Assembly: GCA_021828195.1 (NCBI GenBank)
Contig: JAKASQ010000007.1
Coordinates: forward strand, 1 to 36,714
DNA from: Thermoplasmata archaeon
GTDB lineage: Archaea; Thermoplasmatota; Thermoplasmata; Lutacidiplasmatales; UBA184
Length of the DNA stretch: 36,714 nt
Direction: 5' to 3'
Shown: positions 4,966 through 30,816 of the stretch, piece by piece
Layout: every line of letters starts with the position of its first letter
Numbering within the stretch: position 1 is the stretch's first letter
Notes under the pieces: generated by a model
The model's database searches: none
Seen by the model: only the letters and a program-made list of their open reading frames with translations
What the model was told of the DNA's origin: nothing
Translations under genes and position numbers: made by a program

Positions 4966-6135
4966 CTAGCCGAGCTGGAGCCGTTCGGTGGGGAGCGCGC
5001 GGCCCGGTTCAGAGAAGCGCTGGGGGCCGAAGAGGTGGGGATCGAGATCGGAGGGTTCTCCCAGGACGGCGCGGGCGACGCGCTGGGCCGAGGCCGGGGC
5101 GAGCATGAACCCGTGCCCCCCGAACCCGTTCGCGTGCACGAATCCGGGAAGGCGCGCATCCGTGCCGATCACGGGGAACCCATCCGGAGTATCGTCGTAG
5201 TATCCCGACCATGCGCGGAGGACTCGGAGCGATCGAAACTGCGGGAAGAGTCCGACGAGGCCTCGGGACATCCGCGCGAGGAAGTCAAGCGAGCTCCCCA
5301 TCCCGAGTCGGGTCGCTAGGGTGGTGGAGGGCGCGATACCTCCGACAACCTCCCCGCGCATCGTTTGGCTGAAGTACAGCCCGTCCGAGACCCGAACGAC
5401 CATGGGGTCTAAGAACGGCTTCAACGGTTCGGTAGCGAGGATCTCGTGCCGTGTGGCCACGTTGGGGACATCGAGGCCCGCGCGACGTGAGAGCTCCCCG
5501 GACCAGCCGCCGGCGGCGTTGACGCAGTGCTCGGTCGCGATGCGACCGAGGGACGTCTCCACGGCGGCCACACGCCCCCCGGGAGCGTGGATTCCCGTGA
5601 CTTCGGCCCCCAGGAGGACCTCGACGCCGAGAGCGCGGACGGCCTCGTACAGACCCCACAGCGCCGGGAATGGGTACAGAATCCCGTCCGTGCGCAGGTA
5701 CGTCCCGCCAATGATCGCATCGGGACGGATACCGGGCACCAGCCGGAGCACCTCCGCGGCGTCGATGACCCGGGAGACGAGCCCTTCGCCGCGCACGACG
5801 GCGTTGACCCGGCGAAGGCGGGCGAGTTGGCCCTCATCCTCGGCCACGAAGACGTAGCCCGATTGCCGGAACCAGATGTTGTAGCCGAACTCCCGCCCGA
5901 ACCGGCGGTATGCGGCGACCGATTCGCGCGCGAGCCGGATCGTGGCCGGGGTCTCCCATTGCTGGCGGACACCGCCGCCGTTTCTTCCGGATGCCCCGCC
6001 CGACAGGAACCCTCGATCCAGCACGAGGATCGGTCCGGCGCCGGCGTGGGCCAGATGGTACGCGGTGTAGAGCCCGATGATCCCGGCCCCAACGACGACC
6101 GTGTGGTAGGAGGATCGGGCCGGGGAGGCGATCAC
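4966..6135 (-). CDS. DAO-family FAD oxidoreductase, beta subunit of a hydroxyproline/amino-acid dehydrogenase complex
   Basis: FAD-dependent amine/imino-acid oxidoreductase of the D-amino-acid oxidase/sarcosine oxidase beta fold. The Rossmann dinucleotide motif VVVGAGIIGLYTAYHL sits at residues 13-28. The FAD-anchoring stretch GGASGRNGGGVRQQW follows, and the family's C-terminal W-x-G-x-x-x-x-T-P-D and HANGFGGHGFMLAP segments are intact. Length (389 aa) is typical. It overlaps the stop of the SoxA-like gene (GTGA) with an AAGGAGG sequence 5 bases before the GTG, so translation is coupled and the two proteins likely form one complex. Such pairs occur as cis-4-hydroxy-D-proline dehydrogenase (LhpB/LhpE), proline dehydrogenase, octopine dehydrogenase or HCN synthase. 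The epimerase elsewhere in the window favours hydroxyproline, by inference. Confidence 0.87.
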   Translation of the reverse strand: MIASPARSSYHTVVVGAGIIGLYTAYHLAHAGAGPILVLDRGFLSGGASGRNGGGVRQQWETPATIRLARESVAAYRRFGREFGYNIWFRQSGYVFVAEDEGQLARLRRVNAVVRGEGLVSRVIDAAEVLRLVPGIRPDAIIGGTYLRTDGILYPFPALWGLYEAVRALGVEVLLGAEVTGIHAPGGRVAAVETSLGRIATEHCVNAAGGWSGELSRRAGLDVPNVATRHEILATEPLKPFLDPMVVRVSDGLYFSQTMRGEVVGGIAPSTTLATRLGMGSSLDFLARMSRGLVGLFPQFRSLRVLRAWSGYYDDTPDGFPVIGTDARLPGFVHANGFGGHGFMLAPASAQRVARAVLGEPSDLDPHLFGPQRFSEPGRALPTERLQLG

Positions 6136-7784
6136 GACGCCTCCTTCTCATCCGGGGAGTCGGCAAAGGACGCCAGCGCTCCCAAAGATGTCGGCAGGAC
6201 CGGAGGGCGTTGAGTGATGTAGCCGACCTCGGACGGGCGGCGCTGTTCCAGGATGGAGAGAAGGAGGATGGCGTCGGGGAGGCAATACCGGCCCTGGCAG
6301 AGACCGGTGCCGAGGCCCGTGTAGCGCTTGATCACCTCGATCCCGCGATACCCACGCCGCTCGGCGTCCTCCACTTCGTGGAGGAGGACGTCCTCGCATG
6401 GACATGCGATCCACTTTCCGGAGCCCCGGGGTTGGCGAAGAAGCTCCCGGTAGTATCCTTCGAGCTCCCCAGGTAGATCCAGGGAATGAGGATTGGAGGA
6501 GGACGGCGCGGAGGAGTTCCGCTGCCCGATCGACGTCGCGGTGAGTTGAGCGCACCTGACCGCAGCCGCGGGGTCGGACACCCCGGCGGCCTCGCCTACA
6601 GCATAGAGGCCGGGCACGGTCGTCTGCCCGGTTTCCGAGACGATCGGGAAGTAAGCCGCGGCACGGGAGCGCCACTGCATCAGGGCCCCGGCCTGGAAGA
6701 ACAGCTGTGGGTGGGGCACACGCCGGTGGGCGAGTATGATCGCATCCGCGCCGAGCCGGAAGGAGGGCCCATCCGAGCGGGTCCGAAGTGTCAACCCTCG
6801 AACCCGACGTCGACCGACCGTAGAGAGAACTAGGCTCCGGGGGTAGAGGGGGACTCCCTGCTCCGAGGCGAGCCGGGTGAGATCGGGATTGACGTCTCCC
6901 GGAGCCGCGACGGCGGAGATCCGGCTGGGAAAGCGCGCGAGTACCTCCCGCGCGCGCTCGCCTCCACCGAAGACGACGGCGCGGTTGAACGGCGGAGGAC
7001 CGGGGGCCGAGAGAGCGAATGCCCCTTCCGCCGTGAGTACCCCGGGGCGATCGTTCCCCGAGAACAGCAGGGAGGCATCGTAGCCTCCCGTGGCGACGAT
7101 CACCGAGCGCGCGCGAACCTCCACGCCCTGGCCCGAGTCGTTGGTCGCGGCGAGGGCGAATGGCCTCGCCGCGGCCGGATCGGGAGGGGGGAGGAATACT
7201 GCCGTCGTGCGGCCGAGCATCTCGGCACCCGACATGGTCGACGCCCGGGCATCGCGATCGAGCACTGCAACGGACCCGACGCCCGAGCGCAAGAGGGCGT
7301 CGGCCGCGGCGCTCCCGCTGACCCCTCCGCCCACCACCGCGACCTCCACAATCCTACGGATCGAAGCCGGAGGAGGCTGCTGCGCTGCCTCGCTAGGGGG
7401 GTCGTCATACCCGCTTAGACGACGGACGACCCGTTGGTAGAGCGACGTGAACGCTGCGGGGCGCCGAAACCCTCGAAGGGTGTCGATGCCCCGCGGGAAC
7501 ACGACATCGACGATGCCGAGGAGATCGAAGGACGGAGAGGGCCAGGCGTTCGCCGTCGTCTTCATTCTCGGCAGGTCGAACCCCTCTTGACAGGCCCGGA
7601 CGTTGGTCCGCCCGTCCACGCGGACGAGGCAGTTCGTGCAATAGCCGACCCCGCAGAACGGGGCGCGGGGCCGGTGGTAGCGAATCGAGCGTTGCAGCAG
7701 AGGAAGCCGGCCCTTCCGCGGCGGCGATCCAACATGGGGAACGCGCGGCGGCTCGGGCGAGGAGGCCGAGGGCATGCCCGACAT
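6132..7784 (-). CDS. SoxA-like dehydrogenase alpha subunit with N-terminal [2Fe-2S] and C-terminal BFD-like domains
   Basis: Three parts are visible. (1) An N-terminal plant-type [2Fe-2S] segment with Cys44, Cys49, Cys52 and Cys65 (C-x4-C-x2-C-x12-C). (2) A pyridine-nucleotide-disulfide oxidoreductase core with GGGVSG at about 152-157 and a second NAD/FAD half ending in VPGLYAVGEAAG. (3) A C-terminal Cys-rich SoxA_A3/BFD-like domain with CPCEDV and GLCQGRYC. This is the architecture of heterotetrameric sarcosine oxidase alpha and LhpE/HcnB-type subunits, with the small ferredoxin (LhpF/HcnA) fused. It would pass electrons from the DAO subunit onward. I chose ATG 7784 because a TATA-like CTAAAATA lies 33 bp upstream; a GTG at 7886 would sit on the wrong side of that box. 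Substrate is inferred, not shown. Confidence 0.87.
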   Translation of the reverse strand: MSGMPSASSPEPPRVPHVGSPPRKGRLPLLQRSIRYHRPRAPFCGVGYCTNCLVRVDGRTNVRACQEGFDLPRMKTTANAWPSPSFDLLGIVDVVFPRGIDTLRGFRRPAAFTSLYQRVVRRLSGYDDPPSEAAQQPPPASIRRIVEVAVVGGGVSGSAAADALLRSGVGSVAVLDRDARASTMSGAEMLGRTTAVFLPPPDPAAARPFALAATNDSGQGVEVRARSVIVATGGYDASLLFSGNDRPGVLTAEGAFALSAPGPPPFNRAVVFGGGERAREVLARFPSRISAVAAPGDVNPDLTRLASEQGVPLYPRSLVLSTVGRRRVRGLTLRTRSDGPSFRLGADAIILAHRRVPHPQLFFQAGALMQWRSRAAAYFPIVSETGQTTVPGLYAVGEAAGVSDPAAAVRCAQLTATSIGQRNSSAPSSSNPHSLDLPGELEGYYRELLRQPRGSGKWIACPCEDVLLHEVEDAERRGYRGIEVIKRYTGLGTGLCQGRYCLPDAILLLSILEQRRPSEVGYITQRPPVLPTSLGALASFADSPDEKEAS

Positions 7785-7811
7785 GTGGAACGGGCTCGGA
7801 ACCCGCGCCCG

Positions 7812-7824
7812 GAGTATTTTAGGG
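7812..7824 (-). promoter_or_regulatory. TATA-like box of the SoxA/DAO operon
   Basis: The minus strand reads CCTAAAATACTCC, centred near 7817 and 33 bp ahead of ATG 7784. This decides the start of the SoxA-like gene. Confidence 0.55.
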
Positions 7825-7900
7825 TCCCGGCTCCGGACTCGGCCGCGGAGGGCGCCGAATGGTGCTTCCACGGGCGCGGACGACACCTGCCGGACGAGCC

Positions 7901-7910
7901 AACTATATAG
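7901..7910 (+). promoter_or_regulatory. TATA box of the PhoU gene
   Basis: AACTATATAG, a near-ideal archaeal TATA box, centred 28 bp upstream of the GTG at 7934, implying a leaderless mRNA. Confidence 0.65.
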
Positions 7911-7933
7911 ACTCCTGATACACCGAAGCTGCC

Positions 7934-9001
7934 GTGCGTGCCACCGGTGGATTTCACGGCCGGAAGATCCAGAAGACCGGTGGCTCGACCTACATCATCT
8001 CGCTCCCGAAGAACTGGGTCACGAGCCGTGGGCTCCACGCCGGGGACGTCCTGACCTTCGCCCCCCGCCCGGACGGCTCGCTTCAGATCCAGCCGGAAGA
8101 GGGCAGCTCGACGGAGGTCCTGCGCCGGGTGGTCGCGATCTCGAACGACATGGACGAGGAGCATCTGCTCCGTCGGCTGATCGCGGAGTACATCGCGGGC
8201 TCGACCTTGCTTGAGATTCGCACCCCGACGCGGATGAGCGCCCACACCCGCGACATCGTTCGAGGATTTGCTCAGCGCGTGATCGGCCCCGAGATCATCG
8301 AGGAGACCGCGGAGTCGGTGATCCTCCAGGACGTCGTGGGACCGAATCCGCTCCCGCTCCCGTCCGTCATCCGACGGATGCACCAGATGGCGCGCGCGAT
8401 GCAATCCGATGCGATGGCCGCCTTCCACTCCGCGGATGCGTCAATCGCGAAGGACGTGATCGAGCGGGATCGCGAGGTCGACCGGCTCCATTGGTTCATG
8501 GAGAAGCAGGTCAACTCCGCCTTGCGGGATGCCCGGGTCCTGACGAGCCTATCGGTCACGCTTCCGGACTGCTCGACGTACCTGCTCGCTTCGCGCCTGA
8601 TGGAGCGGATCGCCGACCACGCCGTGCGCATCGCGGGAACGATCCCCCTGTTTCAGAAGGAGCGGCCGCCGGCCACGATGGTCGGCGAGCTCGAGCGGAT
8701 GTCCGAGGCCGCGGCGAAGGCCCTCACCGAGGCCCTCGAGAGCCTCGAGCACCGGGACATCGAGCGAGCGAATGCGGTCATCGACGCGGCCCATCGCCTG
8801 GTCCGCGAACGGGCCCACCTACTGCAGGAGGTCTCCACCAAGCGCGGCCGGATGGCGGTAGGCCTCGCCTACGTCCTCGAGAGCCTGGAACGCAGCGCCC
8901 TCTACGCCGGGGACCTCGCAGAGATTGCAATCAACCACGCCGTCGATACGCCCATCGCCACGGTCGACCGTCCGGTCGGCACTCCCGTGCCCAAGGCGTG
9001 A
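7934..9001 (+). CDS. phoU: PhoU-family phosphate regulator with N-terminal AbrB domain
   Basis: Residues 8-50 form a SpoVT/AbrB swapped-hairpin DNA-binding domain (GRKIQKTGGSTYIISLPKNW). The remainder is the two three-helix-bundle PhoU repeat, with the acidic/His segments typical of PhoU (DREVDRLHWFMEKQV; SRLMERIADHAVRIAG; LAEIAINHAVD). PhoU proteins regulate phosphate uptake; the AbrB fusion is common in archaea and suggests direct transcriptional control. No pst genes lie in the window, so its targets are elsewhere. The gene begins with GTG right after a TATA box and ends about 50 bp from the convergent alcohol dehydrogenase gene. Confidence 0.93.
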   Translation: MRATGGFHGRKIQKTGGSTYIISLPKNWVTSRGLHAGDVLTFAPRPDGSLQIQPEEGSSTEVLRRVVAISNDMDEEHLLRRLIAEYIAGSTLLEIRTPTRMSAHTRDIVRGFAQRVIGPEIIEETAESVILQDVVGPNPLPLPSVIRRMHQMARAMQSDAMAAFHSADASIAKDVIERDREVDRLHWFMEKQVNSALRDARVLTSLSVTLPDCSTYLLASRLMERIADHAVRIAGTIPLFQKERPPATMVGELERMSEAAAKALTEALESLEHRDIERANAVIDAAHRLVRERAHLLQEVSTKRGRMAVGLAYVLESLERSALYAGDLAEIAINHAVDTPIATVDRPVGTPVPKA

Positions 9002-9053
9002 AACGGACCCCCCCGGGCGGGGCCTACATAGCTAGGGCGCAATATTCGGTCGT

Positions 9054-10211
9054 CTATGGTAGTCGTGAGCCGTCGGGGCCCGCGACCTGCTCCACCAAGC
9101 GGCGGAGCTCCTCCGCCGACGGGACGCGGGGGTTCGCGATGCATGCGGTCGAGTGCAGGACCCGTTCTGCGATCACCGCTCGTTGGGCTCGGATCGCGTC
9201 GAGGGAAACCCCTGCCGCAGCCAGGGTCCGCGGGATCTGAAGCTGTTCGCCGAGCGCGCGCAATCTTTCGGAGAGCGTCGCGTGGCTCTGACCCACCGGT
9301 TCGGAGAGCAGCGGCCCGAGCGCGAGGTATCGATCGCGCGCCGAACCGAAGTTGAAGTCGACCACGTACGGGAGCACGATACCCAGGATACGGCCGTAGC
9401 TGAGGCCCGTGTCGGGAAGCAGCGCCCGGGCGAGTGCGTGGGCGAGACCAAGTTGGGCGTTCGATGCGGCGAGACCGGCGCGCGTGGCGGCATAGAACAG
9501 GGCCGTTCGGGCCTCCTCATCGCGGGGATGGCGGGCGAGACGAGGCAGCGCGGTAAGCGCAGCCACGGCCGCGTCGCGCGCCCACGCATCTGAGAACGGA
9601 TTCGCCCACTCCGAGGCGATCGCCTCGAGCGCGTGTGCGACGACCTCCATGCCGGTGTCGATGGCGAGGGCCGGCGGCATCGATCGCCCGAACGTCGGAT
9701 CGACGAGGGCCCAGTCGGGAGTGAGGTCGCGATGCGCGAGCTCGATCGTTGAGCCATCCTCCGAGAGGAGGTTGCTCGATCCCGTGGCCTCGCTCCCACT
9801 TCCTCCGGTGGTCGGGATCGCGACGAGACGGAGGCGCGCGGGTACGGCGAGTTCCGCAAGCGGAGTCAAGGCGCGCACATCAAGATCGGGGCGCGCCAAC
9901 GTCGCGATCAACCCCTTCGCCAGATCGATCAAGCTGCCTCCGCCCACAGCGAGGACGGCATCGAACGACGCGCTCCGGGATCGGTCGACCAGGAGGGCGA
10001 GCGTGCGAAGAGTAGCCGTCGACGGGACATCTTCCACCACGATTGATGAGATCCCGCTGCGGGCAAGCTCCCGGATCACCCGACGGGCGGGATCCAACGC
10101 CGCGATCGTCGGATCGATGAGAACGAACGCGGAGCGGATCCCGAGTCCGCTCAGCTGTTCGATGGCTCCCGGTCCCCATGCGATGCGCGGCGCCGTGAAG
10201 AACCCGGACAT
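9054..10211 (-). CDS. Iron-containing alcohol dehydrogenase-like protein with altered metal ligands
   Basis: Fe-ADH (group III) fold: the NAD-binding GGGSLIDLAKG loop is at about 90-100, the IPTTGGSGSEAT segment at 132-143, and the C-terminal helical domain follows; 385 aa is the usual length. The FucO ligands are Asp196, His200, His263 and His277. By spacing these correspond here to Glu189, His193, His258 and Tyr272. The His of the family's HAMAH segment is Arg262. Metal binding may therefore be weak, different or absent. The gene starts 18 bases after the Fur-domain gene on the same strand and probably shares its transcript. Substrate is unknown; a redox role on short alcohols, lactaldehyde or glycerol-type compounds is only family knowledge. 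Confidence 0.85.
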   Translation of the reverse strand: MSGFFTAPRIAWGPGAIEQLSGLGIRSAFVLIDPTIAALDPARRVIRELARSGISSIVVEDVPSTATLRTLALLVDRSRSASFDAVLAVGGGSLIDLAKGLIATLARPDLDVRALTPLAELAVPARLRLVAIPTTGGSGSEATGSSNLLSEDGSTIELAHRDLTPDWALVDPTFGRSMPPALAIDTGMEVVAHALEAIASEWANPFSDAWARDAAVAALTALPRLARHPRDEEARTALFYAATRAGLAASNAQLGLAHALARALLPDTGLSYGRILGIVLPYVVDFNFGSARDRYLALGPLLSEPVGQSHATLSERLRALGEQLQIPRTLAAAGVSLDAIRAQRAVIAERVLHSTACIANPRVPSAEELRRLVEQVAGPDGSRLP

Positions 10212-10229
10212 TTCGGCGTCCGCTTCCGA

Positions 10230-10517: not shown

Positions 10518-10537
10518 CGATACGTGGAATCTCCTCC

Positions 10538-10550
10538 GCGTATTTGATGG
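10538..10550 (-). promoter_or_regulatory. TATA-like box of the Fur-domain/Fe-ADH operon
   Basis: The minus strand reads CCATCAAATACGC, centred about 27 bp before ATG 10517; it is the only AT-rich patch in the region. Confidence 0.5.
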
Positions 10551-10620
10551 CGCGGAGACTCCGTAACTGGTCACGCACCTGAAGGACCACGGCGATCAGC
10601 CTGGGCACCGAGGAGGCGCC

Positions 10621-11998
10621 CTACCCCCCAGCCGCGGCGAGATATCCCGGCTCGTCTCGGATCAGATCCTGACTCCGAAGTCGGAGGGTTTGGACCACGG
10701 TGGCCAGCATCGCGAAGACCCGCGCCCCTCGCCAGCTCCGGCTCCCTCCGCTGATCTTCCGCGCCACCACTGCCGGGCGCGACGCTCGCTCCGCTCGATT
10801 GTTCGTCCCCTCGACCTCGGGGTGCACCACGAACTCGAACAACCGATCCCGCAACGATAGCACCTCCGTCACGAACCGATGCCCCCGACTCGAACTCCCG
10901 GCGCGATTCGATAGCCCGCCGACCAGCGTCTCCTCGAGCTGGCGGACGTGCTCCGCCGTCCCCCGTCCCGCCACCCTCCGCGCCGCGTGGTAGACGGCCT
11001 TCAGCACTCCGTGAACCTGTCCGCCCTCCCCTCCTAAGAACTCCTCGAGTTCCTTCGAGTCGCCCAACAAGTGGAACCAGCATGCCTGATGTCGCAGTCC
11101 GGTCTTCGTTCCCACCGTCTCATACGCCGAGAGTCGGTCGTGCACGAGGAACCCCTTCGGACGTGGGCCCAACAGTTCCAGCGCCTCCGTGTGCGCCCGA
11201 GTCGGTCTCACATGGTAGACCGCCTCGGTCGGAGTCGCCCCCACCCAGAGGTAGGCCATCTGTCCACTCACCCACCGCGGTGTCTCGTCCATGTATTTCG
11301 CGGGAGCCTCTCGCCTCTCCTCTCGGAACCGATCGTAGACCGGGCCGTAGGCGGCGGCCATCTGCTCGAGCACCGCGTGGGCCTCCCCCTCGCTTACCGA
11401 CACACCCCATACAGGCTCTGGAGCAGCGGAGGGATCTGTTCCACCGTCACTCGATGGCGGACCTTGAGCTGCACGATGGCGTGCATCAGTCGAAGCCCCA
11501 ACTGGGCGCGTGGCGCACGCCCGGAACGGGGGACTCCACGAGCTTCCGACAGCTCCGACGGTATCGTCGCTCCACCGTGTATTCCGTCGCCTCGGTGCGC
11601 GGCGGGGGGAGGTCTTCTACCACCCGAGTTCGGGTCTCCTGGACCCGACTCAGCCGTCCGTTCCCGCACTCGGGGCAGTTCGTCAACGGAAGGCGGATGC
11701 GCCGATCGATGTGGTCGGGCCGGGGCCGAAGCCGAGGGAGGTGTCCGGGGCGAGCCCCGGGCTTTCCTCCGGAGACCCGCGCCTCGGTCGGAGTCTTTAG
11801 CACATACGCCTTGCCGAACTTCACCCCGACCGTCTCCGGGTGGCGCTTCTTGTACGCCACCAACTGCTCCTCGAGTTCGATCTTCTCTCTCTCCAGTCGC
11901 TCCAGTCTCTCGAGAAGTTCGCGGGCTTTCTCTCGGGAGAGCACGGCAGAATCGCCGTCCTCCGGAAGCAGGAGCAGGCGCCAATCCCGAATCTCCAT
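10621..11998 (-). pseudogene. IS66-family transposase, frameshifted
   Basis: Three consecutive minus-strand frames together make one IS66 TnpC-like transposase. Frame one (11998 to ~11510) has a coiled-coil start, a Gly-Lys-Pro-Gly-x-Arg-Pro-Gly-His segment and a CPECGNGR zinc finger. Frame two (~11510 to 11400) carries LMHAIVQLKVRHRVTVEQIP through LYGV. Frame three (11403 to 10621) has the DDE core: DETPRW, FLVHDRLSAYET, HQACWFHLLGD and EGTNNRAERASRPAVVARK. Acidic catalytic residues appear intact, so the lesions are the two frame changes; the second looks like an extra GT in GGTGTGTCGG. No TnpA or TnpB companion genes are seen. No convincing terminal inverted repeats or target duplication were found, so element ends are undefined. 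Confidence 0.8.
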
Positions 11999-12122
11999 GG
12001 GAGCCTCGGGCAGAGAGGTAATGGGTTCCCGGATTTACATTTTGGGTACTCGGCGTTCGTCGAAGGCCCGTTGGCCGTCAGCCGACTTCACATCGCTGAC
12101 CTGTTACTCCCCATGGGAACGT

Positions 12123-12131: not shown

Positions 12132-12150
12132 CCGTCCCCCAGCGTCTATC

Positions 12151-20186: not shown

Positions 20187-21650
20187 TTGCTACCGCAGAC
20201 AGGTGTACGAAGCGCGCCGGACGGGGCGAAGGTACTACGGGATCTGAAGGGGGCCAAGGTCCGCTGGGTCGAGCTGTGCTACACGGACGTACTGGGGGGA
20301 TTCAACCAGGTTGATGTCCCGCTGGATACCCTGGACGCCGAGTCGTTCGTTTCCGGAGTGCCCAAGCTCGATGGCTCCTCCGTGCGCGGATTCCGCGAGA
20401 TTTACGAGTCCGACATGCTGCTCGTCCCCGATCCGCGGACCGTAGCCATCATCCCCTGGCACCCGGACGCCGGCGGGATCGCGCGGCTCATCTGCGACGT
20501 GCGCCTGGGTACGATGAGCGAACCGTACGCCCACGACCCTCGCGGGGTCGCGCGCAAGACCGAGAAGATTCTCGCGGACGCGGGCTACGACCAGTCGTTC
20601 TGGGGCCCGGAAATCGAGTTCTTCGTTTTCGATTCGATCGAGCTGATCCCTTCCGCCCAGGGTGTCCGGGATGCCTGGGGGGGTTCGGGATACCTCATCA
20701 ACAGCGGTGAGACCTCCTGGCAGGAAGGGCCGACGCCCGCCCCGATTCGCTTCAAGGAAGGGTACCATCGCACCGCGCCGTACGACACCCTGATTGGGAT
20801 CCGGGCCGAGGCGTCGAACATCCTCGCCGATAACTTCCACGTCAAGATGGATGCGCACCATCACGAGGTGGCCACGGCCGGCCAGGGCGAGCTCAACGTG
20901 CACTACGACGAGCTCGTGCCGATGGCTGATCATGTTCAGGATGTTAGGTACGTCCTCAAGAACGTCGCCCACCGGCACGGCAAGATCGCCTCGTTCATGC
21001 CGAAGCCGGTCTTCGGGGACAATGGCATCGGGATGCACGTCAACCAGTCCCTATGGACGAAGGGAACGAATACGTTCTTCGATGGCAACGACACCTACGC
21101 CGAGGTCAGCCAGACCTGCCGGTACTACATCGGCGGACTGCTCGCACACTCCCGAGCGTTGTGCGCGATCACCAACCCCACCACCAACTCCTACCGTCGC
21201 CTCGTCCCGGGCTACGAGGCCCCGGTGTTCATTGCCTGGAGCAAGGCCAACCGATCGGCGAACGTCCGGATTCCGTTCTATCATCGCGGGCGCCCCGCCG
21301 TGAAGCGAATCGAGTATCGGACGCCGGATTCCGCCGCCAACATCTATCTGACCGAGGCCGCCCTCGCACTCGCGGGTCTCGATGGGATCCGCCGGAAGAT
21401 TGAGCCGCCGGCCCCGGTCGACCACGACATCTACAAGCTGACGCCCGCGAAGCGCAAGGAGCTCAGCATCCGAGAGCTGCCCGGATCGCTCGGAGAGGCC
21501 CTCGACTGCCTCGCGAGCGATCACGAGTTCCTGAGACCCGCGTTCGCGGACTCGCTTCTCGAGGCGTACACCGACATCAAGCGCGAGGAGCAGCTGCAGC
21601 TGAACCTGAGGCCCCACCCATACGAGTTCTATCGGTACATGGACGTCTGA
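20187..21650 (+). CDS. glnA: Glutamine synthetase, type I
   Basis: Makes glutamine from glutamate, ammonia and ATP. Family landmarks are present: SFVSGVPKLDGSSVRGF, the metal-binding GPEIEFFVFD (about 140-149), MDAHHHEVATAGQGEL, VFGDNGIGMHVNQSLW, NPTTNSYRRLVPGYEAP, NRSANVRIP and KRIEYRTPDSAANIYL; the end PHPYEFYRYMDV is also typical. The second His of the usual MHxHQS motif is Asn. The Tyr in DHDIYKLTP is at the bacterial adenylylation-site position, but modification in this organism is unknown. The start is TTG 20187; there is no ATG or GTG in frame before the conserved region. It could assimilate ammonia freed by the amino-acid catabolic enzymes downstream. Confidence 0.95.
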   Translation: MLPQTGVRSAPDGAKVLRDLKGAKVRWVELCYTDVLGGFNQVDVPLDTLDAESFVSGVPKLDGSSVRGFREIYESDMLLVPDPRTVAIIPWHPDAGGIARLICDVRLGTMSEPYAHDPRGVARKTEKILADAGYDQSFWGPEIEFFVFDSIELIPSAQGVRDAWGGSGYLINSGETSWQEGPTPAPIRFKEGYHRTAPYDTLIGIRAEASNILADNFHVKMDAHHHEVATAGQGELNVHYDELVPMADHVQDVRYVLKNVAHRHGKIASFMPKPVFGDNGIGMHVNQSLWTKGTNTFFDGNDTYAEVSQTCRYYIGGLLAHSRALCAITNPTTNSYRRLVPGYEAPVFIAWSKANRSANVRIPFYHRGRPAVKRIEYRTPDSAANIYLTEAALALAGLDGIRRKIEPPAPVDHDIYKLTPAKRKELSIRELPGSLGEALDCLASDHEFLRPAFADSLLEAYTDIKREEQLQLNLRPHPYEFYRYMDV

Positions 21651-23989: not shown

Positions 23990-24021
23990 CTCCTCATCGA
24001 GCGGGGCAACACGAAGGTCCG

Positions 24022-25227
24022 ATGCGCGCAGTGGTCCTTGGAGGGGGCGGCCTGACCGGCCGGTGCACGGTCCGGGACCTGGCCGCGGGTCACCAGTTCG
24101 ACTCGATCGTCGTCGCCGATCTCGATGAGGAACTCGCCCGGGAAGCCGCGCGACGTGCCGGAGCCCCTCGGCGAGTCCGTGCCGAACGGGTCGACGTCCG
24201 CGACGCCGCGGCCCTCGCCGAGCTCCTGGAGGGCGCCTCGGTCTGCGTCAATGCGGTCCAGTACGCGTTCAACCTCGCGGTCATGAACGCCTGCCTTACC
24301 GCGCGGGTCCCCTACCTGGACTTCGGCGGGCTCTTCCATACCACGCGGAGACAACTCGCCCTCGATCCGAAGTTTCGCGAGGTCCAGCTCCTGGCCATCC
24401 CCGGCCTCGGCCAAGTCCCGGGGATCTCGAACGTGCTCGCCATGGCGGCGTGCCGGGATCTGGAGCGCGTCGAGTCGATCCTCATCCGCGATGGCTGGAA
24501 GGACTTCACCGAAAACGGGCCCGAGATCGCGTTCACGTGGTCGCCGAGCACCTTCCTCGATGAAATGGTCCAACCGGCCCTGATCTTCGAGCACGGGGAG
24601 TACCGGGAACAGCCTGCGATGAGCGGGGCCGAGGAGTACGACTTCCCATCCCCCGTGGGTCGCACCCGTGTGTATCGGACCTTGCACTCGGAGGCCGCCA
24701 CACTCCCCGATAGCCTGCGAGCGAAAGGGCTGCGCCATTGCGAATGGAAGGAAGGGGGTCCCGGGATCGATCTCATGCGAACGATGGCTCGGCTCGGGCT
24801 CGGATCCGACCGACCCGTCCAGGTGGGGGATCGGTCAGTCGTGCCCCGCGAATTCCTCGCCGCGTTGCTGAAGCGAGAGGGCCTGCTCGGAGCCCCGCCC
24901 GGAGTGACGATCGAGGATTGGGAGGTTTGCGACATCGAGGTGCACGGCACGCTCAGCGGCCGGCCGGCCGAACGTCACGCGGTCGCACGTTTCCCGCCGC
25001 GACCGGATTGGCATCTCAGCGCTACGGAGTACGCGGTCGGAGTCGCCGGCGCGATCGGCGCGGAGATGATCGCACGCGGAGAGATCACGGGGGTCGGCGT
25101 ACTTCCGCCCGAAGTGTGCGTCCCCGCGCCTCGGTTCCGGCACGAGCTCGCGCGACGCGGGATCGAGACGGTGATTTCTCCCCCCGAGCGAGAGCTCGCC
25201 CCTCGGGACGTCGTTCACCAGCGCTAG
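24022..25227 (+). CDS. Saccharopine dehydrogenase-family NAD(P)-binding protein
   Basis: 401 aa with an N-terminal Rossmann domain (VVLGGGGLTGRCTVRDLA at about 4-21; ASVCVNAVQYAFNLAVMNAC; YLDFGG) and a C-terminal LYS9-type substrate domain (GLGQVPGISNVLAM; WSPSTFLDEMVQPALI). Enzymes of this family reductively join or oxidatively split amino acid adducts, as in lysine (saccharopine) metabolism or carboxyspermidine formation. The exact substrate is not clear; lysine/2-aminoadipate or pyrroline/piperideine chemistry would fit the neighbours. ATG 24022 was chosen since the Rossmann fold starts at once after it; the frame is open further upstream but overlaps the previous gene. It is convergent with the DapA-family gene. 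Confidence 0.83.
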   Translation: MRAVVLGGGGLTGRCTVRDLAAGHQFDSIVVADLDEELAREAARRAGAPRRVRAERVDVRDAAALAELLEGASVCVNAVQYAFNLAVMNACLTARVPYLDFGGLFHTTRRQLALDPKFREVQLLAIPGLGQVPGISNVLAMAACRDLERVESILIRDGWKDFTENGPEIAFTWSPSTFLDEMVQPALIFEHGEYREQPAMSGAEEYDFPSPVGRTRVYRTLHSEAATLPDSLRAKGLRHCEWKEGGPGIDLMRTMARLGLGSDRPVQVGDRSVVPREFLAALLKREGLLGAPPGVTIEDWEVCDIEVHGTLSGRPAERHAVARFPPRPDWHLSATEYAVGVAGAIGAEMIARGEITGVGVLPPEVCVPAPRFRHELARRGIETVISPPERELAPRDVVHQR

Positions 25228-25268
25228 AACTACTCCCGGTGGGATCCACCCTCCGCCGAGGGGCCCTC

Positions 25269-26168
25269 TCAGCTTGCGGGGGCGCTCGGGCGATTCGAGA
25301 GTGTCGCCTGGATCAGTCGGCGGGTCCGATCCAGCTCCGCTGCGTGGAGTTCGAGTCGCGGAGGGCGCACCCGAGAACTTCCCATCCCCACCTCTTGCTG
25401 AACGAGCTTGATCAATTGGACGAACTTCGGATCCGCATCCAGACGGAGTAGCGGCAAGAACCAGCGGTATCGCGCGAGCGCATCGTCTTGCCGTCCCGCG
25501 CGCGACGCTTCGAACAGCTCGACCGATTCTCGAGGGAGCGCGTTGGCAAGCCCGGCCACCCACCCGGACGCCCCGGCGGCCATCCCCTCCAAGATCTGGT
25601 CATCGATCCCGACGAACCGAGCGACGCGGGAACCCAGCCGAACCCCGAGATCGGTGACGCGTCGCACGTCTCCGCTCGACTCCTTCACGGCCACGAGGTT
25701 GGGGTTGTCGCGCGCCAGGGCCTCGACATCGTCGGGTACCACGTCGGTGCCGTAGGCGATCGGGTTGTTGTACAACATGCACGGGAGCCGCGTTGCACGG
25801 AACACCTGCGAGAAGTGGGTGCGCACCTCCCGGGCATCCCCGTGGTAGACATACGGCGGGAGCACCATGAGCCCGCTCGCGCCCCACTCCTCGGCCGCGC
25901 GCGCGAGCCGAGCCGCGTCCGCCGTGGAGTAGGCCGAGACCCCGACGAGCACCGGCATGCGGCCGGCAGCGCGCATCGCGCTCTTGACGATCCGCATCTT
26001 CTCCTCCGCGGTGAGCGCGGGCGCCTCTCCGAGCGAGCCGAGCACGACCACACCCGCGCACCCGGAATCGAGCAGCCATCGAACGTGCCTCTCGAAAAAG
26101 GGCAGATCGACCTCCAACGACGGATCGAATGGGGTCGTGAGGGCCGGCCAGACACCACTCCACGTCAT
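25269..26168 (-). CDS. DapA-family aldolase/deaminase, probable pyrroline-4-hydroxy-2-carboxylate deaminase
   Basis: TIM-barrel class I enzyme of the dihydrodipicolinate synthase/N-acetylneuraminate lyase superfamily, 299 aa. Tyr133 (LYNNP) and the Schiff-base Lys162 (VAVKESSGD) are present. Segments WSGVWPALTTPF, VVVLGSLGEAPALT, NNPIAYGTDVVP and RYRWFLPLLRLDADPKFVQL resemble the DapA-like proteins I recall from hydroxyproline gene clusters, where the enzyme converts 1-pyrroline-4-hydroxy-2-carboxylate to 2-oxoglutarate semialdehyde plus ammonia. An alternative is a 2-keto-3-deoxygluconate aldolase. ATG 26168 fits the family start; a frame start at 26198 adds ten residues. It lies 109 bases after the epimerase gene on the same strand. 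Confidence 0.85.
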   Translation of the reverse strand: MTWSGVWPALTTPFDPSLEVDLPFFERHVRWLLDSGCAGVVVLGSLGEAPALTAEEKMRIVKSAMRAAGRMPVLVGVSAYSTADAARLARAAEEWGASGLMVLPPYVYHGDAREVRTHFSQVFRATRLPCMLYNNPIAYGTDVVPDDVEALARDNPNLVAVKESSGDVRRVTDLGVRLGSRVARFVGIDDQILEGMAAGASGWVAGLANALPRESVELFEASRAGRQDDALARYRWFLPLLRLDADPKFVQLIKLVQQEVGMGSSRVRPPRLELHAAELDRTRRLIQATLSNRPSAPAS

Positions 26169-26277
26169 CGACGCACCACTCCTCCCGGGTCCGCCCACGC
26201 ACCGGGGCCGGCCAGATGGAGGTTTCGGCTCTCGGAGCGTTCGAATCCGTTGCCGACCGCGCCGGGTTCCCGAGAGC

Positions 26278-27246
26278 TCACCGTCGTGGACTCCGGATCA
26301 ACGGATCGTCGCGGTCGATGAGAAGTTCCGTTTCACCCGTGACGTAGGCCGAGCCGCGGATCGCCGGGTAGAGGATCCCGTCGCGGCGCACCAGTTGACC
26401 CACGAATCGAGTGCCGAGAACGCTCTCCTGCCGCCAGAGCGCTCCCTCGGCAAGCTTTCCATCAGCGTACAGGCAGGCCATCTTCGCGCTCGTTCCCGTC
26501 CCGCATGGGGAACGATCGTACGCGTCCCCAGGGCAAAGCACGAAATTCCGAGCATCCGTGTCGGGTCGTTGCGGCGGTCCGGAGAGCTCGACGTGGTCGA
26601 TCTCCGCACCATCAGCCCCGGTGACGCCCGCTCGGTGCAGCTCCCGTCGGATGGCGACGGTCCGGTCCGTGAGGGCGGGCACGTCGGCGAGCCCCAGCTC
26701 GACGGTCGGCTCGGCGACGAGGAAGAACCAGTTCCCGCCCCATGCGACGTCGCCGCGGACCCGTCCGTACCCTGGGACGTCGAGCTCGACGTCCTTGCGA
26801 TAGCGGTAGCTCGCGACGTTGGTGAACGTCACGTCGTGAGCGTTGTGCAGCTCGGCAGAGACCACGCCGACCGGCGTCTCGAGCCGGTAGGTTCCCGGGG
26901 CGGCGATCCGGCCCAGGTGGTGGAGGGTAACGAACACTCCGATCGTACCGTGCCCGCACATCCCGAGGTACCCGACATTGTTGAAGAAAACCACACCCGT
27001 CGTGACCGGAGCGACCGGTGCGCAGAGGAGCGCCCCGACGGCGATGGGCGAGCCCCTCGGCTCGTCTACGATGAGCCGACGAACGTCGTCGTGAAAGATC
27101 CGGAAGCGCTCGACCCGGCTCGCGAGCGATCCGCTCCCGAGATCGGGCCCCCCGGAGAGGACGACGCGGGTCGGCTCCCCTTCGGTGTGGCTGTCGATCA
27201 CCTGGATCCGCCCGTCGGCGGGTCGTGGATTCCCGTGCGACGCCAT
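26278..27246 (-). CDS. 4-hydroxyproline 2-epimerase (proline racemase family)
   Basis: Interconverts trans-4-hydroxy-L-proline and cis-4-hydroxy-D-proline by a two-base mechanism. Both catalytic cysteines are present: Cys97 in [11 protein letters not shown] and Cys248 in [12 protein letters not shown], so this is not the Thr-containing 3-hydroxyproline dehydratase subtype. Segments [37 protein letters not shown] and [11 protein letters not shown] match the bacterial 4-hydroxyproline epimerases better than proline racemase, though substrate is inference. The product is about 322 aa from ATG 27246; ATG 27282 or GTG 27342 in the same frame would lengthen it. A minus-strand TATA-like ACTATAAGTT at 27392-27401 is upstream. 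The DapA-family gene follows in the same direction. Confidence 0.9.
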
Positions 27247-27391
27247 GCGAGCCAAGGGGGCTCGGCCGCCCCAGGAGGCCATGGCGCCCGCGAACGCATC
27301 AACCTTCGGGGCCCCGGAGACCGGCCCACGCGGGGACCCCACTCGGCAGGTGAAGGGTTACCCAACCGTGTCCGAAGTGGATAATTCGGAG

Positions 27392-27401
27392 AACTTATAG
27401 T
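27392..27401 (-). promoter_or_regulatory. TATA-like box of the epimerase operon
   Basis: ACTATAAGTT on the minus strand; transcription would start near 27370, leaving a leader of roughly 28 bases to GTG 27342 or over 100 bases to ATG 27246. Confidence 0.5.
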
Positions 27402-27568
27402 ACTGTTTTCGAGCGCGAGTTGGCAATACAATCGATATAGAGCCCTTTAACTTAACACGCGTGAAAATGTATTATAACGTACATCTTACGTACCACGGAT
27501 TCCGTTGGTTCGCTGTCTATATATACGGTCCTCCGGCTCGATGAGGCAGTTACGGAGATGAAATTCTC
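27402..27568. promoter_or_regulatory. AT-rich divergent promoter region with inverted repeat
   Basis: The intergenic segment between the epimerase and the HemL-like gene is strikingly AT-rich for this genome. It has TATTATAA at 27470-27477, a perfect inverted repeat ACGTA-CATCT-TACGT at 27477-27491 and a strong TATA box TCTATATATAC at 27516-27526, centred about 47 bp before ATG 27569. GGAG at 27554-27557 lies 11 bases before that ATG, so this gene has a short leader and ribosome binding site. The inverted repeat is a candidate operator for the divergent pair. Confidence 0.55.
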
Positions 27569-29173
27569 ATGGCGGAATCGGAGACCGCCCCAACTCCCCT
27601 GCCCCGAGCCCCGGGCGACCGTCCAGGCGCGGATGGCCGACCGGTCCGGGAACTGCCGGCGGGCCTGAAGGCAGAGGGCGCCGCGCAGCCCCCCATCGCC
27701 TCTACGGAGAACGTCGCCGCGACCGATGCGCGGAAAGAGGAGCTGTCGCGAGAGGCCAAGAAGGATCCGACCTCCGCGCCCCTAGTCGTCGAGGCCGAAG
27801 CCCCTCCGGAACTGCCGATCCCGATCGCACGGCTCGTTCCCAAGCTCAAGAAGAGCGCGAAGCTCTTCGCGGAGGGGAAGCTCTACGTTCCGAACGCATC
27901 GAGTTCGATGATCCGGGTCGCCTCCTACGATCCCTGTCCCCCGTTCATCGCTCGCGGGAAGGGCGCCCGCATCTGGGACGAGGATGAGAACGAGTATCTC
28001 GACTTCAACCTCGCGTACGGGTGCCTCATCAACGGGCACGCGCCAGCGGACCAGGTGCGTGCGATCACCGAGCAGGCCGAGAAGGGGATCCACTTTGCTG
28101 CCCCCACCGAGCTCGAGATCGACGTAGCGAAGCAGTTCCGCCGGCTCGTCCCGAGCGCCGAGCGCGTCGCGTTCTGCTCGAACGGTTCCGACGCCACGAT
28201 GAACGCGATCCGAATCGCCCGCGCCGTGACCGGCAAGGATGCCATCCTGAAGTTCGAGGGTCACTATCACGGCCAGCACGACTACGCGCTGATCAGCGCC
28301 GAAGCTCCACCGATCGTGGCGGGCCTGGACGAGTATCCTCGCCCGCTCCCGAACTCCGCCGGGATCCCACCGGGCGTCACGGACTACGTGATGGTCGCGC
28401 AGTACAACAGCATCGTCTCCTTCGAGCGGATGGTCAAGCGCTACCGCGATCGGTTGGCGTGCGTGATCCTGGAACCGATCATGGCGAACGCGGGAGTCAT
28501 CGCGCCGGTCCCGGAGTACCTGAAGCGGATCGTGGAGATCGCGCACCAGAACGAGATCCTGGTCATCTTTGATGAGGTGTTCACCGGATTCCGGGTGGCA
28601 CCCGGAGGCGCGCAGCAGCTCTACGGGGTAGAGCCCGATCTCTCTTGCTGGGCGAAGGCGCTCGGCGGAGGCGTGCCGATCTCGGCGGTCTCAGGGAAGG
28701 CCGAGTACATGGACTCGATCGCGCCGGGCCGGATCTCCTTCGGCGGTACGTACTTTGCGAACAACCTGTCCCTCGCCGGAACGCTCGCGAACCTCAAGCA
28801 CCTCGCGCGTGGAGGAGAGGAATTGTACGCGCGCTTTGGGCACCTCACCAACAAACTCGAGAAAGGCATCGAGCAGGCCGCGCGCGACGCCAAGGTCTCC
28901 GTACTGGTCCAGTCGGTCAACGGGATGCTGCAGTACTTCTTCACCCGCCGCAAGAAGATCCAGAACTACCGGGAGGCGCTCCAGATTGACTGGAACCTCT
29001 ACTTGCGCAACCACCAGCTCCTGCTCGACAAGGGGATCTACACGCATCCGGACAACTACGAGCGGATCACCTTCTCGAGTGCGCACACGGACAAGGACGT
29101 GGAGCGGTTCCTCCAGGCGATCGGAGAGACGTTCACCGAACTCAAGACGCTCCCGCGCGATTACCTGGCGTGA
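27569..29173 (+). CDS. Class III aminotransferase, glutamate-1-semialdehyde aminomutase-like
   Basis: PLP-dependent fold type I enzyme. The catalytic domain starts near residue 95 and carries NASSSMIRVASYDPCPPF, FCSNGSDATMNAIRIAR, FEGHYHGQHDYAL, LVIFDEVFTGFRV and the PLP lysine Lys363 in WAKALGGGVP. The pattern is closest to HemL/GSA-aminomutase-like proteins used as amino-acid transaminases or aminomutases outside heme synthesis. The first ~85 residues are a low-complexity Pro/Ala/Glu extension absent from the family. The gene has its own TATA box and GGAG ribosome site. Its stop codon overlaps the start of a 48-residue reading frame (TGATG). True 5-aminolevulinate synthesis is unlikely given the context, but not excluded. 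Confidence 0.87.
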   Translation: MAESETAPTPLPRAPGDRPGADGRPVRELPAGLKAEGAAQPPIASTENVAATDARKEELSREAKKDPTSAPLVVEAEAPPELPIPIARLVPKLKKSAKLFAEGKLYVPNASSSMIRVASYDPCPPFIARGKGARIWDEDENEYLDFNLAYGCLINGHAPADQVRAITEQAEKGIHFAAPTELEIDVAKQFRRLVPSAERVAFCSNGSDATMNAIRIARAVTGKDAILKFEGHYHGQHDYALISAEAPPIVAGLDEYPRPLPNSAGIPPGVTDYVMVAQYNSIVSFERMVKRYRDRLACVILEPIMANAGVIAPVPEYLKRIVEIAHQNEILVIFDEVFTGFRVAPGGAQQLYGVEPDLSCWAKALGGGVPISAVSGKAEYMDSIAPGRISFGGTYFANNLSLAGTLANLKHLARGGEELYARFGHLTNKLEKGIEQAARDAKVSVLVQSVNGMLQYFFTRRKKIQNYREALQIDWNLYLRNHQLLLDKGIYTHPDNYERITFSSAHTDKDVERFLQAIGETFTELKTLPRDYLA

Positions 29174-29319
29174 TGGCCGCGTGCTCGGCGGCCCGGACGA
29201 TCATCGACGGTGAATGGGTCGACCGGCTCGCCCACCGAACGGTCCTGAGGAACATCGGCGCCGACTTCGCGGGCTCAACGTGGAAGGGATGGCATTACAC
29301 GGTCTGCGGCGATCCGTAG
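29173..29319 (+). CDS. Small protein (48 aa), translationally coupled
   Basis: An ATG at 29173 shares bases with the TGA stop of the HemL-like gene (TGATG) and opens a 48-codon frame ending TAG at 29317-29319, 9 bases before the aldehyde dehydrogenase start. The product has a mixed, protein-like composition with Trp, Tyr and two Cys (TIIDGEWVDRL ... GSTWKGWHYTVCGDP) and no membrane segment. The perfect fit between the two flanking genes and the coupling overlap are the evidence; I recognise no homologue. It could be a small subunit or regulator of the neighbouring aminotransferase or dehydrogenase, or a chance frame. Confidence 0.45.
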   Translation: MAACSAARTIIDGEWVDRLAHRTVLRNIGADFAGSTWKGWHYTVCGDP

Positions 29320-29328
29320 GCAGGTCGC

Positions 29329-30816
29329 ATGATCGAGGGAATGCCGCCGGACGGCCGCGGTCGCCTGTTCATCGCAGGCGAGTGGCGGGCTCCAGCCAGT
29401 GGAGGGTACCGACCCGTGGTCGATCCCTCGACGGGGAGCACGATCGGACAGGCGCCGATCGCTTCTGTGGATGAAGCGCGCGCCGCCGTGGAAGCGGCGG
29501 CGGCGACCGAAGAGAGCTGGGGGGCGGTCGCCGGCCATCAACGAGCGCGCATCCTGCGGGAGATCGCCCAGCGCCTTCGCGCCGATCGGGACCCCCTCGC
29601 TCGCCTGATCGCCTCCGAGGTCGGCAAGCCGATCGCCGAAGCCCGAGTCGAGGTCACCCGGGCGGCGAGCGTCTTCGAGCTCGCGGCCGAGGAGATCCGG
29701 CTACTGGGAGGGAAGAGCTATCCGGCCGACGCCTACGAGTATCCGGTCGGCAACGATCGTCGATTCCTGTTCACCGTCCGGGATCCGATGGGGGTCATCG
29801 TCGCGATCGGCCCGTTCAATTTCCCCCTGAACCTCCTCTGCCACAAGGTCGCTCCGGCGCTGGCTGCTGGGAACCCTGTGGTGGCCAAGCCGACGAGCAG
29901 CGCCCCGTTCACGGCGCTCCGCCTCGCCCAGCACCTCGAAGCGTCGGGGATCCCGCCGGGAGTGTTCAACGTCGTCATTGGCCCGGGCGGTGCGGTCGGC
30001 AGCGCGCTCGTCGAGCATCCCCGCACGCGCCTCGTGACCTTTACCGGCTCGACCGAGGTCGGTAAACAGCTCGCGGAAGCCGCCGGCCGGCACGCGAAAC
30101 GCGTGATCCTCGAGCTCGGCGGGCTCGATCCGTTCATCGTGCTCGACGACGCGAACCTCGACGGGGCGGTCGCGGCCGCCGCGCGAGGCGCGTTCGGATA
30201 TTCGGGCCAGGTCTGTACGGCCTCCAAGCGGTTCCTCGTCCAGGAAGCGGTGGCCGACCGGTTCGGCGCCGCGCTCGCGACGCGGGCCAAAGGGCTCCAC
30301 CTGGGGCCGGCCAGCGAGGAGACCACCGAGCTCGGCCCGCTCATCGACCGGGCCGCGGTCGATCGGGTGGAGCGCATGGTGAAAGACGCCCATCATCGGG
30401 GCGCCGCGGTCCTGACGGGCGGTCGGCGCTCGAACTCCTTTCCGGATGGGAACTTCTTCGAGGCGACGGTGCTCGACTCCGTGCCCGAGGGTGCGGAAGT
30501 CGTGCAGCAGGAGCCGTTCGGCCCGATCGCGCCGATCCTTCGCTTCGAGAAGATCGAGGACGCGATTCGGATCGCCAATGCCACTCCGTACGGACTGCAG
30601 GCCTCCGTCTACACCCGGGATCTCGCGCGGGCGTTCCGTGTAGCGAAGCGGATCCGAGCCGGCTCGGTCCATCTCAATGACCCGACAAACTTGCGCTGGG
30701 ACGCGCTTCCCTTCGGTGGGGTGAAGGAGAGCGGGCTCGGCCGTGAAGGGATCCGTGACGCGATGCTTGAGATGACCGAGGTCAAGCTCATCTCGGTGAA
30801 CTACGCCGACGGTTGA
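29329..30816 (+). CDS. Aldehyde dehydrogenase, probable 2-oxoglutarate-semialdehyde dehydrogenase
   Basis: NAD(P)-dependent ALDH superfamily enzyme of 495 aa. Catalytic elements: Asn164 (PFNFP), Lys187 (VVAKPTS), FTGSTEVGK, Glu262 (LELGG) and the nucleophile Cys296 in GQVCTASKR; the C-terminal QQEPFGPIAPI and FGGVKESGLGREG are typical. The Lys usual after ELGG is Leu here. In hydroxyproline breakdown this enzyme makes 2-oxoglutarate from its semialdehyde. Archaeal glyceraldehyde and lactaldehyde dehydrogenases look similar, so substrate is inferred from context. It starts 9 bases after the small frame behind the HemL-like gene, so an aminotransferase-ALDH operon is likely. Its 3' end overlaps the convergent aminotransferase by 29 bases. 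Confidence 0.9.
   Translation: MIEGMPPDGRGRLFIAGEWRAPASGGYRPVVDPSTGSTIGQAPIASVDEARAAVEAAAATEESWGAVAGHQRARILREIAQRLRADRDPLARLIASEVGKPIAEARVEVTRAASVFELAAEEIRLLGGKSYPADAYEYPVGNDRRFLFTVRDPMGVIVAIGPFNFPLNLLCHKVAPALAAGNPVVAKPTSSAPFTALRLAQHLEASGIPPGVFNVVIGPGGAVGSALVEHPRTRLVTFTGSTEVGKQLAEAAGRHAKRVILELGGLDPFIVLDDANLDGAVAAAARGAFGYSGQVCTASKRFLVQEAVADRFGAALATRAKGLHLGPASEETTELGPLIDRAAVDRVERMVKDAHHRGAAVLTGGRRSNSFPDGNFFEATVLDSVPEGAEVVQQEPFGPIAPILRFEKIEDAIRIANATPYGLQASVYTRDLARAFRVAKRIRAGSVHLNDPTNLRWDALPFGGVKESGLGREGIRDAMLEMTEVKLISVNYADG

Follow-up and report, generated by a model that had tools for sequence, protein, structure and literature searches.

The stretch of DNA analyzed here (the window, 36,714 nucleotides; GenBank assembly GCA_021828195.1, contig JAKASQ010000007.1, positions 1 to 36,714) comes from a Thermoplasmata archaeon of the Lutacidiplasmatales (UBA184) and carries a two-gene unit, or bicistron, that probably encodes two enzymes of trans-4-hydroxyproline catabolism, a 4-hydroxyproline 2-epimerase (HypE) and a DapA-like deaminase. 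Our favored reading, which we hold with moderate confidence, is that this is a bacterial-type HypE-DapA operon, likely gained and inserted, with oxidation of the epimerized substrate by a DAO-family dehydrogenase encoded on another contig (C2) and the last step carried out by one of the genome's four aldehyde dehydrogenases (ALDHs). An earlier note on this DNA had placed a complete set of enzymes from hydroxyproline to 2-oxoglutarate within the window; only half of that set, the epimerase and DapA, holds, as the SoxA/DAO dehydrogenase probably serves another reaction and the window ALDH is a possible but doubtful choice. The five open reading frames of that proposal do exist and are all clear members of their families by Pfam, and the residues to which it drew attention (Cys97 and Cys248 in the epimerase, Tyr133 and Lys162 in DapA) are all present.

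The window is the whole of contig C7 of genome G000 (1.62 Mb, 7 contigs, 93.6% complete), with a GC content of 0.64 to 0.70. Its gene order recurs in two genomes of the same genus, G001 (on a 208-kb contig) and G070, and because of this synteny contamination is unlikely; the contig is archaeal. We compared it with a genus sample of 61 genomes, 16 with and 45 without HypE; in G035, one of the 16, HypE and DapA were found by tblastn after being missed by the gene caller. The bacterial comparison set consists of the loci of the best 80 HypE relatives from named genomes, a set in which records near the window's genome may be missing; all 80 are bacterial and are 56 to 63% identical to the window HypE. 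Families were scored with Pfam and NCBIfam profiles, and the closest solved homologues were found by PDB-chain scores.

The route from trans-4-hydroxyproline to 2-oxoglutarate is established for bacteria and has four steps. In the archaeon, HypE would invert C2 of trans-4-hydroxy-L-proline to give cis-4-hydroxy-D-proline, with Cys97/Cys248 serving as acid and base; a flavin D-amino-acid dehydrogenase, probably that at C2:8925-10046 and not SoxA/DAO, would convert this to pyrroline-4-hydroxy-2-carboxylate (Pyr4H2C); DapA, through a Schiff base on Lys162, would remove water and ammonia to leave alpha-ketoglutarate semialdehyde; and one of the four ALDHs of G000 would produce 2-oxoglutarate. The families, active-site residues, gene order, co-occurrence, and insertion site are read from the sequence, and from them we infer the substrates and the direction of flux. 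The two genes of the bicistron are as follows.

26278-27246, reverse strand: 4-hydroxyproline 2-epimerase (HypE), first gene of the bicistron (PF05544, 298 bits; Cys97/Cys248)
25269-26168, reverse strand: DapA-like enzyme of the Pyr4H2C-deaminase type (PF00701, 190 bits; Tyr133, Lys162)

The best NCBIfam models for HypE are both 4-hydroxyproline epimerases (NF010577, 398 bits; NF052296, 392 bits), the top two among the six NCBIfam families matched, and lower scores were obtained with proline racemase (208 bits), a third epimerase model (NF010578, 203 bits), and trans-3-hydroxyproline dehydratase (t3HypD; 168 bits). Likewise, the seven nearest PDB chains score 350 to 386 bits and the next groups at most 170 bits, with the proline racemase 1w61 at 156 bits and the t3HypD 7qpo at 112 bits among the more distant chains. 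The deposit names of the nearest seven are mostly “proline racemase”; 4j9w/4j9x (Pseudomonas protegens) and 2azp are called HypE in passages of PMC4364671 and PMC4113996. The catalytic cysteines lie in MCGH and DRSPCGTG motifs, and Cys97/Cys248 are invariant in all 10 aligned archaeal rows. Specificity sites are defined in a passage of PMC4364671, where the HypE type has Ser or Val at site 1, His at site 4, and Cys or Tyr at site 5. By alignment, the window enzyme has the HypE type at all three (Val70, His218, and Cys238), site 1 having been placed by hand using the distance that separates V60 from the first Cys (assumed to be residue 88) in the Pseudomonas aeruginosa enzyme. Site 5 is Cys in 15 of the 16 HypE copies of the genus (Thr in G019), the site-4 motif was recognized in 15 of 16 (the exception being G069), and site 5 is Phe, as in proline racemases, in five of nine superfamily members from another family of the class.

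The profile scores, the two catalytic cysteines, and the residues at the specificity sites thus all agree with the hydroxyproline-type epimerase that had been proposed. The enzyme could instead be a proline racemase, or a bifunctional racemase/epimerase like TlProR, serving D-proline metabolism, with DapA catalyzing an unrelated aldol or dehydratase reaction. Characterized archaeal members do act on both proline and hydroxyproline, according to the part of PMC4364671 that describes them, and the candidate dehydrogenase considered below is D-proline-dehydrogenase-like. The three enzymes in question, TlProR of Thermococcus litoralis, FaProR of Ferroplasma, and HjProR of Haloarcula, resemble that of the window in being archaeal members of the proline racemase superfamily with a Cys/Cys pair (same passage), but they have Phe or Trp at site 5, whereas the window enzyme has Cys, groups with bacterial HypE, and has a deaminase partner. 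Since the window residues are Val, His, and Cys rather than the Phe, Leu, and Phe/Trp of archaeal ProR-type enzymes, and since HypE tightly co-occurs with a deaminase-type DapA, we regard a proline racemase as very unlikely.

DapA follows HypE on the same strand after 109 bases, and, as the earlier note had it, belongs to the type that accompanies hydroxyproline genes in bacteria. Homologues at least 40% identical over at least 200 residues are present in 47 of the 80 bacterial HypE loci; the motif GSLGE is shared by 36 of these 47 and by all 11 archaeal copies given, and the Lys by all. The window enzyme reads YNNPIA where the DHDPS chain has YNIPGR, and the position of the substrate Arg of DHDPS holds no Arg in any of the 42 bacterial DapA copies (of the 47) and 11 archaeal copies compared. 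Seven weaker DapA paralogues in bacterial HypE loci carry other motifs.

Within the 61 genomes of the genus, HypE occurs in 16, a close DapA (at least 53% identical) in 17, and both in 15 (Fisher P = 3e-11, kinship ignored). The exceptions are G026, whose HypE is close to the end of its contig, and two genomes, G008 and G011, which are 71 to 73% complete and have DapA only. Over the three species of the window clade (G000, G001, and G070) HypE is 87 to 92% and DapA 94 to 95% identical; all three retain the catalytic residues of HypE, and both the motif and the Lys of DapA were confirmed in the two genomes checked, G000 and G070. The epimerase and deaminase are therefore well supported as a hydroxyproline pair, their substrates being predicted. 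The known clusters of bacteria, such as lhp of Pseudomonas and SCO6289-6293 of Streptomyces coelicolor, resemble the window in that HypE adjoins a Pyr4H2C-deaminase-type DapA, and they resemble sister archaeal species in having a bacterial-type DAO between the two. Unlike them, the window is archaeal and has no such DAO (termed DAO2 below) beside the pair, and its dehydrogenase is probably of an archaeal D-proline dehydrogenase (D-ProDH) type encoded elsewhere.

The bicistron lies on the opposite strand between two genes that we regard as core genes of the genus.

24022-25227, forward strand: left flank, saccharopine-dehydrogenase-type enzyme (SDH; PF16653/PF03435)
27569-29173, forward strand: right flank, glutamate-1-semialdehyde-aminomutase-type PLP enzyme (GSAT; NF000818, 407 bits)

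In the four fetched loci from relatives that show both flanks and gave no HypE or DapA match, SDH and GSAT stand close together, with gaps between their tblastn matches of 193 (G028), 219 (G021), 447 (G080), and 1408 (G079) bases, the SDH being cut by the end of the stretch in G021 and G080. This proximity suggests that the HypE-DapA bicistron was inserted between SDH and GSAT. HypE lies between the KsgA and thermosome genes in G021, G064, and G075, and the KsgA side alone is seen in G030, G078, and G081; the corresponding gap in G000 measures 345 bases. At least two core sites therefore harbor the module in this one genus.

HypE was found in none of 24 relatives outside the genus. In a sample of 292 genomes of the phylum, proline-racemase-family matches occurred in 14, of which 2 belong to the genus and 12 to a single different family of the class. 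Of these 12, 10 were chosen for the tree and one (L180) yielded no sequence; the remaining 9 all fall outside the HypE group. In the HypE tree, the 16 archaeal rows and the 80 bacterial ones form one group (98/99). Gain of HypE-DapA from bacteria is the most likely explanation. The transfer from bacteria that had been suggested thus stands as the likely reading through the kinship of the enzymes, and its direction, which the HypE tree does not prove, is presumed.

For the second step, sister species offer other solutions. The order HypE-DAO2-DapA, DAO2 being the DAO of the archaeal clusters, is found in 5 of the 16 HypE genomes (G004, G021, G025, G075, and G078), and in G026 HypE is accompanied by a DAO2 fragment where the contig ends. 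HypE-DapA stands alone in G000, G001, and G070, no further partner was resolved in G035, and in G069 the end of the contig truncates the HypE locus. Six of the 16 (G000, G001, G070, G020, G069, and G081) have no DAO2-type match, and no match to DAO2 above 30% identity was obtained in G000, G001, and G070, which are 83 to 95% complete. One of the six has a different dehydrogenase in the operon.

L021:5902-8980 (G020), one strand: D-proline-dehydrogenase-like DAO, HypE, and DapA in a row

This G020 D-ProDH is 57% identical to the product of C2:8925-10046, on another contig of G000, and D-proline dehydrogenase is the top-scoring model for each (258 and 266 bits, respectively). In a quick tree the two fall with nine bacterial HypE-locus DAOs that are not of the DAO2 type (SH-aLRT 99), a grouping that stands on a long branch of 3.3 changes per column. 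An archaeal D-proline dehydrogenase is described as converting cis-4-hydroxy-D-proline to Pyr4H2C in a passage of PMC4364671. Because of the operon homologue in G020, the D-ProDH scores, the quick tree, and this reported activity, C2:8925-10046 is the likeliest candidate for the step-2 enzyme; the dehydrogenases chosen here for steps 2 and 4 are both putative. It is also conceivable that the pathway is a relict, in which HypE and DapA were kept after a dedicated DAO was lost and hydroxyproline is epimerized and poorly oxidized, as the window clade does keep HypE-DapA without a DAO2-type match. The conservation of both proteins over its three species suggests use, however, and a D-ProDH homologue exists in G000, so a relict seems to us improbable.

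The dehydrogenase first proposed for this step, SoxA/DAO, lies at the other end of the window.

4966-6135, reverse strand: DAO-family beta subunit of a flavin dehydrogenase that is core to the genus (PF01266, 241 bits)
6132-7784, reverse strand: SoxA-like alpha subunit, partner of the DAO (N-terminal 2Fe-2S domain Fer2_4, FAD domain, Fer2_BFD, SO_alpha_A3)
3556-4878, reverse strand: glycerate-kinase-type gene of the SoxA-DAO operon (PF13660, 73 bits; Pfam name DUF4147, which we take to denote glycerate kinase)

If SoxA/DAO were the D-hydroxyproline dehydrogenase and the window ALDH the alpha-ketoglutarate semialdehyde dehydrogenase (KGSADH), the window would hold the whole pathway. In favor of this, SoxA/DAO shares the subunit plan (alpha, beta, and 2Fe-2S) outlined for the bacterial LhpBEF type in part of PMC6608401, and every one of the 16 HypE genomes has SoxA (P = 0.035). 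However, SoxA occurs in 51 of the 61 genomes, including 35 of the 45 that lack HypE, and orthologues of the window DAO at least 60% identical occur in 46 of 61, with or without HypE. In all nine loci fetched, SoxA-DAO is followed by the glycerate-kinase-type gene, with an Fe-alcohol dehydrogenase (Fe-ADH) nearby in nine and PhoU in eight. DAO2 was the best DAO query in 64 of the 67 bacterial HypE loci with any match and the window DAO in 1; DAO2 scored a median of 241 bits (66 loci), and the window DAO scored a median of 73 and a maximum of 105 bits (61 loci). In a quick DAO tree, 47 of the 56 bacterial DAOs fall with DAO2, and the DAOs of the window type stand apart; branches are long for L101, L078, and DAO2_G019, and the DAO2_G019 row is an artefact, probably from the wrong strand.

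The PDB chain nearest the window DAO is 1y56_B, the partner of PH1363, at 191 bits, against the median of 73 bits in bacterial loci (different programs), and the best PDB match of SoxA is the alpha chain of the same structure, at 71 bits. A passage of PMC4364671 gives PH1363/PH1364 as the L-proline dehydrogenase of Pyrococcus horikoshii. This enzyme (PDH1, 1y56) is like the window pair in combining a SoxA-like alpha with a DAO beta subunit and is the best solved match of both, but the window alpha subunit reaches only those 71 bits and the window operon adds a glycerate-kinase-type gene. PF01619 proline dehydrogenase has no match in G000, and a role in L-proline oxidation leaves the linkage to glycerate kinase unexplained; might the operon act on L-proline, or on a serine- or glycine-type amine leading to glycerate? 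Given its frequency in HypE-less genomes, its glycerate kinase partner, its lack of linkage to HypE, and a DAO that is nearest to L-proline dehydrogenase and apart from those of bacterial clusters, SoxA/DAO was set aside as the D-hydroxyproline dehydrogenase, which it probably is not.

The fourth step had been assigned to the ALDH that lies next to GSAT.

29329-30816, forward strand: ALDH from an island of amine/peptide catabolism that is common in the genus (PF00171, 541 bits)

Its NCBIfam scores are 464 bits for lactaldehyde dehydrogenase, 418 for SSADH, and 344 for KGSADH (NF042993), and this last is the lowest among the four ALDHs of G000, the other three scoring 384, 522, and 370 bits. 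The 522 belongs to the ALDH at C2:293207, whose best model is alpha-ketoglutaric semialdehyde dehydrogenase (cut-off 770) and which scores 412 bits on the L-glutamate-semialdehyde (P5C) model. Orthologues of the window ALDH (at least 63% identical) occur in 38 of 61 genomes, namely in 13 of the 16 with HypE and in 25 of the 45 without (P = 0.061). A second ALDH adjoins the orthologue in all 16 loci fetched from 15 genomes, and 15 of the 16 also have a class-III aminotransferase no more than 3 kb away. In G028, the single locus scanned further, the best model for the second ALDH is aminobutyraldehyde dehydrogenase, and the island is followed by a peptide ABC transporter. This context suggests amine or GABA catabolism. 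On the other hand, the window ALDH adjoins HypE in G026, and it was the best of the four G000 ALDHs at 11 of 20 ALDH places (from 20 of the 80 bacterial loci), with margins that are mostly small. Assignment by homology to bacterial clusters failed, as the four score alike at most of these places. The window ALDH is thus a possible but doubtful KGSADH, and together with the evidence on SoxA/DAO this makes it unlikely that the whole pathway is encoded in the window. In the window itself, the island (29329-33745) comprises the ALDH and two class-III aminotransferases, one of which, near 30.8 kb, was missed by the gene caller and confirmed by Pfam; the second, aminobutyraldehyde-type dehydrogenase that the island has in relatives is absent here, and the ALDH of that type in G000 is on contig C6.

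Several results weigh against our favored reading, a HypE-DapA operon served by C2:8925-10046 and one of the four ALDHs. HypE stays under the NCBIfam cut-offs of all three epimerase models (398 of 442 bits for NF010577, 392 of 450 for NF052296, and 203 of 376 for NF010578), DapA reaches no NCBIfam equivalog cut-off and has no dedicated family model among its matches, C2:8925-10046 scores 266 bits against a D-proline dehydrogenase cut-off of 600, and none of the four G000 ALDHs reaches the KGSADH cut-off. To these we add the presence of SoxA in every HypE genome and the fact that no hydroxyproline transporter was identified; no regulator or transporter was recognized with the bicistron. Finally, the best HypE tree unites 12 of the archaeal rows in one clade and leaves out the window clade (three rows) and G026. 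This topology led us to consider two separate origins for archaeal HypE; a single group of all 16 archaeal rows is not rejected (p-AU 0.463).

Hydroxyproline is typical of collagen and plant cell walls, and a further set of sister operons bears on its possible source. In G019, G030, G064, and G081 a kumamolisin gene lies upstream of HypE-DapA, and in three of the four an FMN-dependent dehydrogenase of the alpha-hydroxyacid type lies between; the genes overlap by 4 bases in the operons of G064 and G030, with starts as chosen by the gene caller. The rows that combine a kumamolisin-type S53 protease with HypE-DapA are as follows.

L018:666-4338: kumamolisin-type S53 protease row
L019:4372-9030: kumamolisin-type S53 protease row
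L218:8415-11984: kumamolisin-type S53 protease row
L219:4076-8290: kumamolisin-type S53 protease row

The G030 protease scores 519 bits to kumamolisin and 432 bits to kumamolisin-As, an S53 acid protease with collagenase activity, and its alignment keeps the stretches around Ser, Glu, and Asp at what we take to be the catalytic positions of kumamolisin. The G081 copy is shorter, with the prodomain unmatched. The protease is beside HypE in these four genomes and not in the window, and kumamolisin is found in none of the 80 bacterial HypE loci. Kumamolisin-As is described as collagenolytic at pH 4 in part of PMC11294657. Because S53 peptidases are common in Lutacidiplasmatales, as a passage of PMC9287336 states, and because the four genomes may share one ancestral site, the adjacency is suggestive only. 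Collagen or plant-wall hydroxyproline as the source, which the earlier note had raised, would gain some weight from these proteases. We propose, tentatively and with rather more doubt than confidence, that the genus turned the bacterial pathway into a module for scavenging collagen or extensin in acid habitats, through operons that join a secreted kumamolisin-type protease, an FMN dehydrogenase, HypE, and the deaminase in some species, a swap to the archaeal D-ProDH that includes the window species, and several core insertion loci.

Taken together, a pathway familiar from bacteria appears here in an archaeal genus, where its dehydrogenase partners have changed. For archaea, PMC4364671, in the part available, reports racemases with both activities and goes no further than to suggest that T. 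litoralis may also use the bacterial route. No description of an archaeal HypE-deaminase cluster was found among open-access titles and the starts of abstracts, an absence that is weak evidence, and the main text of PMC9287336, on the Lutacidiplasmatales of acid soils, has no word beginning with “proline.” If our reading is correct, the occurrence of a dedicated HypE-deaminase pair in some members of an archaeal genus, with exchanged dehydrogenases and acid proteases as partners, would show how a catabolic module enters archaea and is rewired, and it predicts that soil archaea use hydroxyproline-rich protein. With one genome, one missing step, and two candidate dehydrogenases, a clean test is possible.

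Other features of the window surround the SoxA-DAO operon (2297-7784, reverse strand), in which an MFS gene follows, as it does in three of the nine fetched loci. Divergent from the operon is a gene (7934-9001, forward strand) for a PhoU-domain protein with an N-terminal AbrB/MazE-like DNA-binding domain. An IS66-type transposase gene (10621-11403, reverse strand) follows Fe-ADH and had no counterpart in L223 and L013, the two stretches of G001 that were searched. Glutamine synthetase, correctly noted earlier as lying near the pathway genes, is encoded at 20187-21650 and passes TIGR00653 (521 bits, cut-off 429).

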